Below, piece by piece: positions 2,607 to 7,000 of a stretch of DNA of 46,610 nt; the first letter of the stretch is position 1; every line of letters begins with the position of its first letter. Made by a program: the position numbers and the translations under genes. The DNA comes from Deltaproteobacteria bacterium. GTDB lineage: Bacteria > Desulfobacterota > Desulfobacteria > Desulfobacterales > SpSt-501. The stretch lies in contig JACRCN010000077.1 in assembly GCA_016219005.1 (NCBI GenBank), forward strand, positions 1 through 46,610, written 5' to 3'. The notes below the pieces were generated by a model. That model searched no databases, was not told where the DNA came from, and was given only the letters and a program-made list of their open reading frames with translations.

Positions 2607-3071
2607 ATGGACAGAATACAAAGAACCTTAGAGCTTCAAAGAAATGGCGGGCTCAACTGCTCGCAGGCTATCCTTACAAGTTTCGGCGAACAATTTGACA
2701 TCTGCCCCGAATAGGCCAGAATCATCGGCAGGCCATGGGGTGCGGGCATCGGACAGTTGGCGGAGACCTGCGGGTACCTTACCGGTGCCGTTCAGATTTT
2801 AGCCCACGCCTATGATCAAGACGATGAGGGCAAGGCTAGAATGGACGTTTTCCGAGCAGTTCAAGAACTCTTCAAGCGGTTTGAGAAGAAGCGTGGAAGT
2901 ACCAAATGCCGAGAGTTGCTCGGCGTAGATTTCAGCACGAAAGAGGGCCTGTTAAAGATCAAAAGCGAGGGGCTTGTACAAAAAATATGTTGTAGCGCGG
3001 ATGGTATCGGGCGTGATGCCGCGGAGATTCTTGAGGAGATTATCAAGTCGCGAGAAAAGTTTCCAAAGTAA
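2607..3071 (+). pseudogene. C_GCAxxG_C_C family redox protein with in-frame amber codon
   Basis: The frame from ATG 2607 reads as one C_GCAxxG_C_C family protein of about 154 residues except for a single TAG at 2712-2714 (codon 36). Family landmarks occur on both sides: GLNCSQAIL near residue 18 before it; then RPWGAGIG, ETCGYLTGAV, STKCRELLG and a C-terminal ICC followed by DAAEILEEI after it. No frameshift is needed. A good Shine-Dalgarno (AAGGGAGG) precedes the start. The family is small, Cys-rich and thought to be redox active; members are often near metal or redox genes. Here it lies 47 bp before a MerB-like selenoprotein gene. The amber codon may be an inactivating mutation, a read-through or pyrrolysine codon, or a sequence error. 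It aligns with a non-Cys position, so selenocysteine is unlikely. Confidence 0.72.
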
Positions 3072-3118
3072 CACTCCGGTTCGGCCGGAGGACCCACGGG
3101 GCTCGACAGGAGGGGAGC

Positions 3119-3826
3119 ATGAATGACAAACAGCTGTTAGATAAAGCCTTTCACTTTATAATGGAAACTTTTGTTAAACGCGGGGATGCTCCCCATTACA
3201 CGGAGATTGCCAAAAATTTTGGCATACAGCCAGACGAAGGCAAAAGGATTCTCATAGACCTGATGAATACTCGCGTAATGCCGATGTGGCTATACCCGGG
3301 CACGGATTTAATAGTGTCGTTTGCGCCGTTCAACAACCTGCCGACGCAATACCGTATTACTGTTGAAGGGCAGCAGAAATGGTTTGGACAGTGAGGTTTT
3401 GAAGCCCTGGCGGTCTGCTGGGTCTTTCCGGGAAAAGCGATTCAGATCGATGCGCCATGTTTGGATTGCGGTGAGCCCATGCGCATAGTTGTGTGCGATG
3501 GCAACATAGAAAGTCAGGACCCGGCCGGAATTCATGGATATGTTGATATCCCCTTGAGCAAATGGGCCGAGGACTGGTCTTTCACGTGAAGTCGAATTCA
3601 TCTCTTCCGGTCGGAAGAGCATGTAAAAAACTGGTCGGCGTTTCGAAAAGGAACAGATGAAGCGATTCTGCCCCTCTCCAAGATTATGGCTATCCTGAGC
3701 ACACCCCGCCACAGTGCAAAATTGAACGGCCATTACGTTTCCTCTGCGCCGGAATATGCATCCTTATTTCTTCAGAGGCTGAGGGAGGTAACTAACGATT
3801 CGGCATTCTGGAGCCCAAAGGCTTAA
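3119..3826 (+). CDS. MerB-like (alkylmercury lyase family) selenoprotein with two predicted selenocysteines
   Basis: Read through two in-frame TGA codons, this is a continuous 235-residue protein ending at TAA 3824-3826. Start ATG 3119 follows an AGGAGGGG ribosome site. An N-terminal winged-helix-like part (residues 1-90) precedes the MerB core. TGA at 3392-3394 (residue 92) sits where MerB has catalytic Cys96 (CALDTL in MerB, U-GFEAL here); Glu95 replaces Asp99. TGA at 3587-3589 (residue 157) sits at Cys159 (FCCHVHFF in MerB, FT-U-SRIHLF here). DPAG, a CLDC pair and SEEHVKNW also match the family. Each TGA is followed by a SECIS-like hairpin. MerB cleaves carbon-mercury bonds using two Cys and one Asp; a selenol version may act on organomercury or on another organometal or alkyl substrate. 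TGA is the normal stop of many neighbouring genes, so recoding must be local. Substrate is inference. Confidence 0.88.
3401..3428 (+). promoter_or_regulatory. SECIS-like element 1 (for TGA 3392)
   Basis: Seventeen bases after the first TGA lies a GGTC sequence (3412-3415), part of GGTCTGC, which is also the apical sequence of the E. coli fdhF SECIS. A lower stem forms between 3401-3407 (GAAGCCC) and 3420-3427, with one bulged base. The inner stem has mismatches, so this element is weaker than the second one. Confidence 0.6.
3599..3623 (+). promoter_or_regulatory. SECIS element 2 (for TGA 3587)
   Basis: A perfect 7 bp stem (CTCTTCC 3602-3608 with GGAAGAG 3613-3619) closes a GGTC tetraloop at 3609-3612, the same apical loop as the E. 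coli fdhF SECIS. Three more pairs (3599-3601 with 3621-3623) extend it across a single bulged C. The loop begins 19 bases after the TGA, as expected for a bacterial SelB-binding hairpin within the coding region. Confidence 0.85.
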
Positions 3827-4093
3827 AGGCAGGGGAGATTAACCCGGATAGACCTTGAAGCCTTCGATCCTTGCCGATGAATCAAATCCTTCTCCTCCAA
3901 TTCCGGGGGAGAGGGCAGGCTGGGAGGCCATTGGAATTCCAGCTCGATTCTCTCCGCAGTGCGGATGGGTTCCATGGCAATCGACCTTGCTTCGCAGCAG
4001 GATGGCTCGCTTGATCATATTTCTCGTATCCGCGAACCGCTTGCAGCACGGGGGGACGATGAGGCGCCAGGCGCACCGGGGCTGCCGGATGCC

Positions 4094-7000
4094 TCACTGG
4101 GGCTTAGGGGCCTGGCGCGCGGGCTCCACCTTGACGGCGCTGAACCTGGAGCGGAGTTTTTTCTGCAGGGAGTCCATGTAGAGATAGAAAACCGGCGTCA
4201 CAAAAAGGGTCAGCATCTGGGAGAAGAGCAGCCCCCCCACCACGGCCAGGCCCAGCGGCTGGCGCGACTCGCCGCCGGCTCCCCAGCCGACCGCGATCGG
4301 CAGGGTGCCCACCAGGGCGGCAAAGGTGGTCATCATGATCGGCCGGAACCGGACGATGCAGGCTTCGTAGATCGCCTCCACCGGCTGCTTGTGTTCGACA
4401 CGCTGGGCCTCGAGGGCGAAGTCGATCATGATGATGCCGTTTTTCTTCACCAGCCCCACCAGCAGGATCAGCCCCACGAACGAGTAGATGTCCAGCTGCG
4501 CGTTGAAGATCAGCAGCGTGAGCAGCGCCCCGACCCCGGCCAGCGGCAACGCGGACAGGATCGTGATCGGGTGGATGAAGCTCTCGTACAGGATCCCGAG
4601 AACGATGTAGATCACCAACACGGCCACCACCAGCAGCACGCCCAGGTTCTTGAGCGAGGACTCGAAGACCTGGGCCGTGCCCTGGAAGTTTGCCGTTATG
4701 GTGGCCGGCAGCAGCCTGCGGGCCAGGTCGTTCAGGCCTGCGACGGCGTCCCCCAGGGCAAAGCCGGGCCCCAGGTTGAAGGAGACGGTGACGGACGGCA
4801 GCTGGCCGCTGTGGTTGATGGTCAGCGGTCCGTAGCCCCGGGTGATTTTCGCAACGGCATCGAGGGGCACCAGCGCGCCGCCGGAGGAGCGTACGTAGAG
4901 CAATGAGAGGGCCGAGGCATCGAGCTGATACTCGGGTTTCAACTCCAGGATCACCTGGAACTGGTTCGTGTCGGCGTAAATCGTCGATATCTGACGCGTG
5001 CCATAGGCGCTGTAGAGGGCATCCTCGATCTGTGCGGCCGAGATGCCCAGCGACGCCGCCTTGTCCCGATCGATATCGATATTGATCTGGGGGTTTTTGA
5101 TCTGCAGGTCGGTCGTCACGTCCTGGAAGCCCGGAAGCGCCTGTATTCCGGAAGCCAGCTGCGGTGCAACGCGGTAGAGCTCGCCCACATCCGGGCCCTG
5201 CAGCGTGTACTGGTACTGGCTCTTGCTCAGCCGGCCGCCCAGCGAAATGGCCGGCGGGTTTTGCAGGAAGGCGCGGATTCCGGGTACCCGGGACATCTTC
5301 TGCCGCAACTGTTGGATGACCTGATCGGCCGACGCCTCCCGCTCCGAGCGGGGCTTGAGCCGTATGACCAAAATGCCGCTGTTGCTTCCGGTGATGCTGC
5401 CGGCCCGGGCGCCGGCACTGGACATGAACGCCTCGATGCTCGGCTCCTGGGCTGCGACCGCCGCGAGCGCCTGTTGCTGCCGTTTCATCGCCTCCCAGGA
5501 GATGCCTTCCGCGGCTTCGGTCAGACCGTAGATCAGCGACCGGTCCTCATTGGGGATGAACCCCTTGGGCACCACCCGAAACAGCCAGACCGTGGCGATC
5601 ATGACCAACACCAGGAAGACCAGGGTGAAGCGGCGATTTTCCAGAAACCATCGCAGGCTGCGCTTGTACAGCGCCAGCATCCCGTCGTAGATCCTTTCGG
5701 ACGCATCGTAGAGCCTGCCTGGGGGTTGTTCCGCATGCGACCGCAAAAAACGGCTGCAGAGCATGGGCGTGAGCGTGAGCGCGATCACTCCCGAAATGAG
5801 AATGGCCACGCCGATGGTGACGGCGAACTCGCTGAACAGCCGGCCCAGGATGCCACCCATGAACAGAATGGGGATGAACACCGCCACCAGCGACAGGGTC
5901 ATGGACACGATGGTGAACCCGATTTCTCTGGATCCATTCAAGGCCGCTTTGACGGGTCCCTCGCCCATCTCGATATGCCGGACGATGTTCTCCAGCATGA
6001 TGATGGCGTCGTCCACCACGAAGCCGACCGCCAGGATCAATGCCATGAGCGACAGGTTGTCGATATTGAATCCCAGCAGGTACATCACCACGAAGGTGCC
6101 CACCACGGACATCGGTATCGCCAAGCTGGGAATCAGCGTGTAGGACAGCCGCCGGAGGAAAAGAAAGATTACCAGCACGACGAGTGCAAGCGTGAACAGC
6201 AGGGTGAACTGCACGTCGTGTACAGACGCCTGGATGGACATCGAGGCATCATACAAAATATTGAGGGAGACGGAGGCGGGCAGCTGTGCTTGAAACACCG
6301 GCAGCAGTTGCTTGACCGCTGAAGCCACCTCCACGGTGTTCGTCCCCGGCTGGCGCTGAACCGCCAGGATGATGGCGCGCTGGTCGACATACCAGGCCGC
6401 GGTCTTGTTGTTCTCGACGCTGTCGAACACGGCGCCGATGTCGCCCAGCCTCACCGGCCGGCCGTCGCGATAGGTGACGATGATGGAGCCGTAGGGTTCG
6501 GCGTTCAAAAGCTGGCCGCTCGCCTGGACGGTGAAGGCCTGCTGAGGCCCATAGAGGGTCCCGGTGGGCAGGTTGACGTTGGCCCGGCTCACGGCTTCCT
6601 CCACCTGATCGATCCCGATGCCCCGCGAGGCCATCTCCCTGGGATCCAGTTGGACGCGCACGGCGTATTTCTGGGCACCGAACACCTGCACCTGGGCGAC
6701 CCCGCTGACCATCGATATCCGTTGGGCCATCAGGGTCTCGCCGTATTCGTTCAGCGTGTAAAGCGGAAGCGTGGGCGAGGTCAGGGCGATGCGCAGGATC
6801 GCCTGGTCAGCCGGGTTGACCTTGCGAAAGTAGGGCGGGGTCGGCATTTCCTTGGGCAGGTTGCGGGCCGCCCGGGAGATGGCTACCTGCACGTCCTGGG
6901 CCGCGGCATCGATGTCGCGGTGCAGGGCGAACTGCAGCGTGATCTGGGTGCTCCCCAAAGAGCTGGTGGAGGTCATGGAATCCAAACCGGCAATCGCCGA

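Follow-up and report, generated by a model that had tools for sequence, protein, structure and literature searches.

A MerB-fold protein with selenocysteine predicted at both catalytic cysteine positions

The DNA analysed here (the window) is a stretch of 46,610 nucleotides from contig JACRCN010000077.1 of a Deltaproteobacteria bacterium, and it carries at 3119..3826 on the forward strand a MerB-like gene interrupted by two in-frame TGA codons. The first one (codon 92, site 1) lies at 3392..3394 and the second one (codon 157, site 2) at 3587..3589, at the positions of MerB Cys96 and Cys159, respectively, as established from frame reading, relatives and profile alignment. When both codons are read as selenocysteine (Sec), the frame, which ends in a TAA stop, gives a single protein of 235 residues, and the gene so defined is backed by the PF03243 search and by an AlphaFold2 model; its coordinates and frame are exactly those of the first-pass annotation. 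Without readthrough the first frame piece has 91 residues, which is the product that standard gene calling had been expected to return. Sequence reading places a ribosome-binding-like AGGAGG (3108..3113) 5 nt 5' of the ATG, whereas alignment locates the codons of Glu95 (3401..3403, at the MerB Asp99 position) and of a CxxC motif formed by Cys114-Leu-Asp-Cys117 (3458..3469), in which Cys114 occupies the place of MerB Cys117; all of them are on the forward strand. The two TGA codons fall inside the sole PF03243 match of the host genome (E <= 0.001). The estimated contamination of this genome is 4.67% and the owner of the contig is not certain, though the gene is also found in relatives of the same order.

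Directly upstream (2607-3071, forward strand) there is a gene coding for a C_GCAxxG_C_C redox protein, which contains an in-frame TAG at codon 36 when it is read from the ATG at 2607. This gene may be broken, or its start may lie further on; pyrrolysine at the TAG was rejected, as PylS is below the cut-off in the host genome.

Membership of the MerB family was evaluated with Cys substituted for Sec, both in the PF03243 search and in the AlphaFold2 model. Read through in this way, the protein scores 70.4 bits against PF03243 (cut-off 27, E=1.8e-19) over residues 73-191, which span both UGA codons. The model (mean pLDDT 96.2, pTM 0.92) is most similar to Hg-bound MerB2 (PDB 5c17; Z 17.2 over 192 residues) and to MerB (Z 15.7), the first unrelated fold having a Z of 4.7. 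In a profile built from the window protein and 42 relatives, U92, E95 and U157 align with MerB Cys96, Asp99 and Cys159, and in this respect the alignment proposed in the first-pass annotation, including Glu95 at the position of the essential Asp99, was correct. According to the available text of PMC4525700 and PMC8261052, MerB binds the metal by Cys96 and Cys159, and Asp99 is the proton acceptor and donor. The signature used for canonical MerB (Cys96, Asp99, Cys117 and Cys159), as described in the accessible parts of PMC8261052 and PMC12874090, is retained in the window protein only as Cys114 for Cys117, with UGA at both Cys96 and Cys159 and Glu95 at Asp99. The NCBIfam MerB equivalog NF009710 gives 28.3 bits, below its threshold of 193 bits. 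That the window protein has the MerB fold and active-site layout can nevertheless be regarded as virtually certain.

Relatives were collected in several scans. In the phylum, 395 genomes yielded 60 PF03243 places in 50 genomes; read as site 1/site 2, they are Sec/Sec in 36 cases, Cys/Cys in 16, Cys/Sec in 5, and Sec/Cys, Sec/gap and Ser/gap in one case each. The three single cases are all interrupted or out of frame, and therefore the MerB-like gene is decayed or mis-assembled in some genomes. The 36 Sec/Sec places comprise 27 of family A, window included, and 9 of family B, the A-versus-B pairs printed being 11-19% identical. Within the order of the window 389 genomes were scanned and 46 had a match: all 25 full-length family-A places (24 besides the window) are Sec/Sec, and 12 of the 30 other places, examined by eye, consist of six Sec/Sec members of a branch C (L218-L221, L227, L228), five of family B, also Sec/Sec (L222-L226), and one Cys/Sec (L229). 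Representatives of B and C also score above the PF03243 gathering value. Branch C is a third Sec/Sec branch of MerB, and L218 comes from a genome of the window's own genus. Some Sec/Sec genes are located in single-contig genomes (G282, G451, G550, G529), so that an assembly error is unlikely to account for the double UGA. A scan of named genomes, whose patterns demand a Cys codon at one site and hence cannot detect Sec/Sec, produced 77 loci, of which 73 are Cys/Sec and 4 are truncated or out of frame as extracted, with Cys/Cys in none of the 73; they derive from metagenome-assembled genomes titled Rokubacteria, Acidimicrobiia, Nitrospinota, Chloroflexota, Tectomicrobia and several proteobacterial groups. 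Homologues with Cys at 92 and 157, named beforehand as the support to look for, are thus available in 16 of 60 places, besides those with Sec at site 2 alone (5 of 60 places and 73 of 77 named loci). The viral contig scan turned up no relative.

As regards the other active-site positions, Glu95 is invariant in A1 and A3, and A2 has an invariant Asp129 three residues past the first Sec; Asp is found at the Asp99 position in family B and, by eye, in the branch-C loci. Cys114 is invariant in A1, and the whole CxxC (Cys114, Cys117) is invariant in 19 aligned family-A proteins. Some variants were also seen among the relatives. The acidimicrobial versions (L143, L144, L154-L156, L159, L163-L165, L167, L170) have about 381 residues owing to a C-terminal extension, which in L144, the one tested, has no Pfam match, and L065 4491-5174 (G356) has Sec at site 2 inside a Cys/Cys branch of MerB relatives of about 300 residues.

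The first-pass annotation had also described a hairpin with a GGTC loop 17-19 bases after each TGA, and both are in place on the forward strand. SECIS-like hairpin 1 (3401..3427) has a core 6-bp stem (3406-3411/3417-3422) closed by the loop GGUCU (3412-3416), which begins 17 nt past the UGA, whereas SECIS-like hairpin 2 (3599..3623) shows, as had been reported, a perfect 7-bp stem (3602-3608/3613-3619) with the loop GGUC (3609-3612), which begins 19 nt past its UGA, and an outer extension of 3 bp beyond a bulge. Taken singly, hairpin 2 of the window surpasses most of its dinucleotide shuffles (z -2.35, 5 of 200 as good); hairpin 1 does not (z 0.12, 98 of 200 as good), and at site 1 the case is made by conservation. 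A site-1 stem of at least 5 bp in the expected register is present in 27 of 27 family-A Sec sequences (window included) versus 26 of 73 Cys sequences, and pairing reaches 100% in 25 distinct Sec rows versus 67.4% in 69 Cys rows. This hairpin is nearly invariant in family A and its covariation is weak, the observed values being reached by 18 of 500 shuffles. In family B the site-1 hairpin is different, lies 21-37 nt past the UGA and varies too little for covariation.

The site-2 stem reaches 5 bp or more, with the loop beginning 19 nt past the UGA, in 98 of 100 family-A rows and in 9 of 9 family-B rows, and the GGTC loop is found in 89 and 9 of them, respectively. Pairing holds in 96.9% of the cells of 83 distinct family-A rows, while column shuffles average 89.9% and none of 500 is as high; 30 cells (83 rows x 7 pairs) are altered on both sides, a number that 0 of 500 shuffles reach, and sliding the register by 1-3 columns lowers pairing to 44-58%. 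In family B the sequence is TTCC-GGTC-GGAA, encoding Arg, or TTCT-GGTC-AGAA, encoding Trp; the two are compensatory alternatives, and the choice between them also determines the amino acid. Among the 16 Cys/Cys rows the GGTC loop does not occur and such a stem appears in 2. The site-2 register is not matched by any of the 5 remaining Cys/Sec rows from the phylum scan; their SECIS, if present, would be of another kind. An Rfam search of 3000-4000 matched no SECIS family. Altogether, a SECIS element is strongly supported at site 2, and at site 1 it is supported by conservation only.

The selenocysteine machinery, whose four genes had been named as the ones to be sought, is complete in the host genome: selA (609 bits), two selB (378 and 281), tRNA-Sec (55.5) and selD (374 and 361). 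The tRNA-Sec adjoins one selB on C100; a second candidate of 47.1 bits, barely above the gathering score, is on a small contig. The two selB genes (L002, L003) are different from each other and the two selD genes (L185, L186) have an in-frame TGA; these pairs reflect either a true duplication or a mixed bin. Regarding the genetic code, TGA is the stop of 11 of the 18 other intact window genes (stop read), for which reason it is not generally reassigned as a sense codon. selA is above the cut-off in 48 of 50 phylum-sample genomes with a MerB match, including 28 of 28 with Sec/Sec, the two without it having only Cys/Cys, and in 30 of 34 named Cys/Sec genomes searched (drawn from the 73 Cys/Sec loci); the other four are drafts, one of them with a fragment at a contig end. 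A lack of selABC and homologues without Cys/Sec at both positions, which had been anticipated as speaking against this decoding, did not occur.

The exchange between Sec and Cys is restricted to one site in family A, since in its 100 rows site 2 is always Sec and site 1 is Cys in 73 and Sec in 27. On a tree of 93 rows (51 Sec/Sec and 42 of the 73 Cys/Sec), calculated with both site columns masked, five Sec/Cys changes at site 1 are needed and five are forced by starred branches, so that site 1 of family A has undergone five or more switches from Sec to Cys or back; a tree with all Sec/Sec rows in one clade is rejected (p-AU 6e-5). Within a Cys/Sec group, the window pairs with L212, another Sec/Sec locus from the same order (G505) that is 60% identical to it. 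Two Cys/Sec members of this group, L107 (about 4801-4830) and L109 (about 4919-4948), retain a GCTGGC-GGTCT-GCTGGC hairpin beside the site-1 Cys codon, which suggests a fossil SECIS and, if the direction of change is the one this implies, a loss of Sec to Cys there. For six pairs of closely related Sec/Sec genes, one pair from family B and five from family A, dN/dS is 0.07-0.31 before site 1, 0.09-0.31 between the sites and 0.06-0.22 after site 2. With values of 0.06-0.31 in all three segments of the six pairs, purifying selection acts in relatives on either side of both UGA codons. Past site 2, identities of the window protein with L107, L108 and L110 range from 33/75 to 42/78.

Two readings of the gene do without Sec, and both were rejected on the relatives' UGA positions, selection, TGA stops, Sec system and hairpins. 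If the UGA codons were ordinary stops in a decayed merB, with hairpins due to chance, the unexceptional site-1 hairpin, the 3 of 60 relatives interrupted or out of frame and the in-frame TAG of the gene just upstream would be easily accommodated; however, decay does not explain why UGA falls on precisely these two codons in 36 of 60 places of the phylum scan and 25 of 25 of the order scan, why selection is maintained past both codons in relatives, why the site-2 hairpin covaries and why selA accompanies double-Sec genes in 28 of 28 phylum-sample genomes; this reading is very improbable. More improbable still is the reading of UGA as Cys or Trp through a code change or suppression: the alternation of UGA with Cys codons among relatives speaks for it, but TGA terminates most of the other intact window genes read, the genome has a full Sec system, and hairpins lie downstream of the UGA codons, with looser pairing at site 1 in relatives that have a Cys codon there. 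From these sequence comparisons, decoding of both UGA92 and UGA157 as Sec appears highly probable.

The function of the protein is a separate question. UGA92 and UGA157 would be decoded by SelB and tRNA-Sec, each by means of its own downstream hairpin, so giving an active site with two selenols and a carboxylate in which Sec92, Sec157 and Glu95 would stand for MerB Cys96, Cys159 and Asp99. By analogy with MerB, the selenolates would hold the metal of an organometal compound and Glu95 would pass a proton to the carbon, breaking the carbon-metal bond. Proton-assisted cleavage of the MerB type is the simplest reading, given Sec, Glu and Sec at the three corresponding positions, and a double-Sec MerB-fold protein, with both UGA codons decoded by the Sec system and acting as a MerB-type carbon-metal lyase, is probably the best explanation of the locus; taken alone, lyase activity may be considered likely by analogy, while organomercury compounds, methylmercury included, are the best candidates for the substrate, although for organomercury as the natural substrate the chances are slightly under even. 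Against the lyase reading would count, as judged from the genes present, the replacement of Asp99 by Glu, the absence of a mer operon or conserved neighbour and MerA being mostly below the cut-off; besides, a tight Se-Hg binding could hamper product release. Rather unlikely, yet the main competitor, is a double-Sec MerB-fold protein with a role other than the cleavage of carbon-metal bonds, for example the sequestration or transfer of mercury, selenium or arsenic species, or redox catalysis by a reversible Se-Se or Se-S pair with the participation of Cys114 and Cys117. The invariant CxxC of the 19 aligned family-A proteins and the flavodoxin-like gene (by eye) upstream at nine loci of the ~300-residue branch agree with it, as do the lack of mer genes among the tested neighbours, MerA usually below the cut-off and neighbourhoods that are unconserved past close relatives. 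On the contrary, the retention of Glu or Asp at the proton-donor position (Glu95 in A1 and A3, Asp129 in A2) and the match of fold and active-site layout with MerB favour the lyase.

Concerning the gene neighbourhood, the Pfam-tested neighbours of the window gene encode a LysR regulator, the C_GCAxxG_C_C protein, RND efflux components and an amino-acid-type ABC transporter, with no mer operon among them. Clustering of the neighbours of double-Sec genes revealed no conserved partner, only lineage synteny and common enzyme families; the flavodoxin-like gene lies just upstream in nine loci of the ~300-residue branch (8 Cys/Cys, 1 Cys/Sec). Among 36 double-Sec genomes, 28 from the phylum sample and 8 from the order scan, MerA is above the cut-off in 3, the host genome not being one of them, and HgcA in 27. 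At G000:C75:2500-7500 (L233) the host genome encodes an HgcA with NVWCAAGK, which we take to be the HgcA motif, and next to it a ferredoxin-like frame that contains two cysteine clusters and ends in CC, presumably HgcB traits; on this sequence evidence the genome has a mercury-methylation gene pair made up of HgcA and an HgcB-like neighbour. In the phylum sample HgcA is above the cut-off in 19 of the 28 genomes with a double-Sec gene and in 95 of the remaining 367, a strong raw enrichment (Fisher p 1e-5). It is no longer significant when families are considered separately (Mantel-Haenszel OR 3.0, p 0.12), in a calculation that included only genomes with a printed family and under-counted those without a match, which works against the association. 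The enrichment is a lead only, and shared ancestry and habitat alone may explain it. The available text of PMC8261052 reports HgcAB in none of the genomes with MerB but without MerA; the host genome carries HgcA and an HgcB-like ferredoxin together with a MerB-like gene.

Several known systems resemble the window protein in part. SaoL (MerB-like organometallic lyase, NF040728), the closest of the described relatives, is likewise related to MerB and has Sec at the Cys159 position, but the accessible part of PMC13188914 lists it with a single Sec in a CU motif, whereas the window protein has Sec also at the Cys96 position; its score against NF040728 is 41.8 bits, under the cut-off of 140, and at site 2 Thr precedes Sec with no CU motif. 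L092, a SaoL member among the loci collected, scores 175 bits and has C then U at site 2. MerB of plasmid R831b (PDB 3f0o, 3f2f) has the same fold, the three positions Cys96, Asp99 and Cys159 and an equivalent of Cys117, with Cys, Asp and Cys where the window protein has Sec, Glu and Sec, at about 15% identity. MerB2 (PDB 5c17), the closest structure (Z 17.2) and also the best PDB sequence match (1.6e-14 with the profile), has Cys at both sites and Ser at the Asp99 position instead of Sec, Sec and Glu. A MerB-family selenoprotein was predicted earlier as 'organic mercuric lyase MerB2' and 'alkylmercury lyase MerB-like protein' in what could be consulted of PMC7435645 and PMC9312934, and possibly corresponds to the family-A Cys/Sec form; the table of the 2026 review PMC13188914, as far as accessible, gives one Sec for its MerB-like entry. 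Two Sec residues are also listed there for a protein linked to metals, NF041115 (UxxU, putative mercuric reductase), in which they form a local UxxU, in contrast with the window protein, whose Sec residues are 65 apart and aligned with a known catalytic pair; NF041115 is absent from the NCBIfam matches of the window protein. In the main texts, so far as available, of PMC13188914, PMC9312934, PMC7435645, PMC2398784 and PMC8318568 there is no double-Sec MerB; the terms MerB, mercur and lyase do not occur in PMC5029168 and PMC12013277. The proposal of a double-Sec MerB-like protein is thus supported, with the qualification that a Sec relative of MerB with one Sec (SaoL, PMC13188914) was already in print; for Sec at both sites no description was found in the literature covered, in part as excerpts, and there may be an earlier one. 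No model of NCBIfam release 20 (June 2026) scores above its cut-off with the window protein, with the representatives of families A and B or with a branch-C piece of 169 residues.

To our knowledge, the replacement of both catalytic cysteines of a single enzyme by Sec is unusual. Here it is found in three branches, and site 1 of family A exchanges with Cys, so natural matched Cys/Sec and Sec/Sec enzymes are available, with Cys/Cys forms in more distant branches. Mercury is bound far more tightly by selenium than by sulfur, and for this reason product release becomes a direct mechanistic question. The ocean survey of PMC12874090, in the portion available, discarded merB sequences without Cys96, Asp99, Cys117 or Cys159 and called its counts minimum estimates; merB screens that filter on these four residues overlook double-Sec genes. 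As a tentative and rather doubtful extension, these genes might represent a large and so far unnoticed group of diselenol organomercury lyases, spread over three or more branches of the MerB superfamily and with many carriers having hgcA, in such a way that one cell could both make and break methylmercury, a class missed by merB surveys that end genes at UGA and drop sequences without Cys96/Cys159.

The host genome also shows a weak HgcA-like match at G000:C43:33960-34337 (62 bits, below the cut-off), which lies in a 490-codon frame with one in-frame TGA and is possibly, on its sequence, another selenoprotein related to corrinoid proteins.
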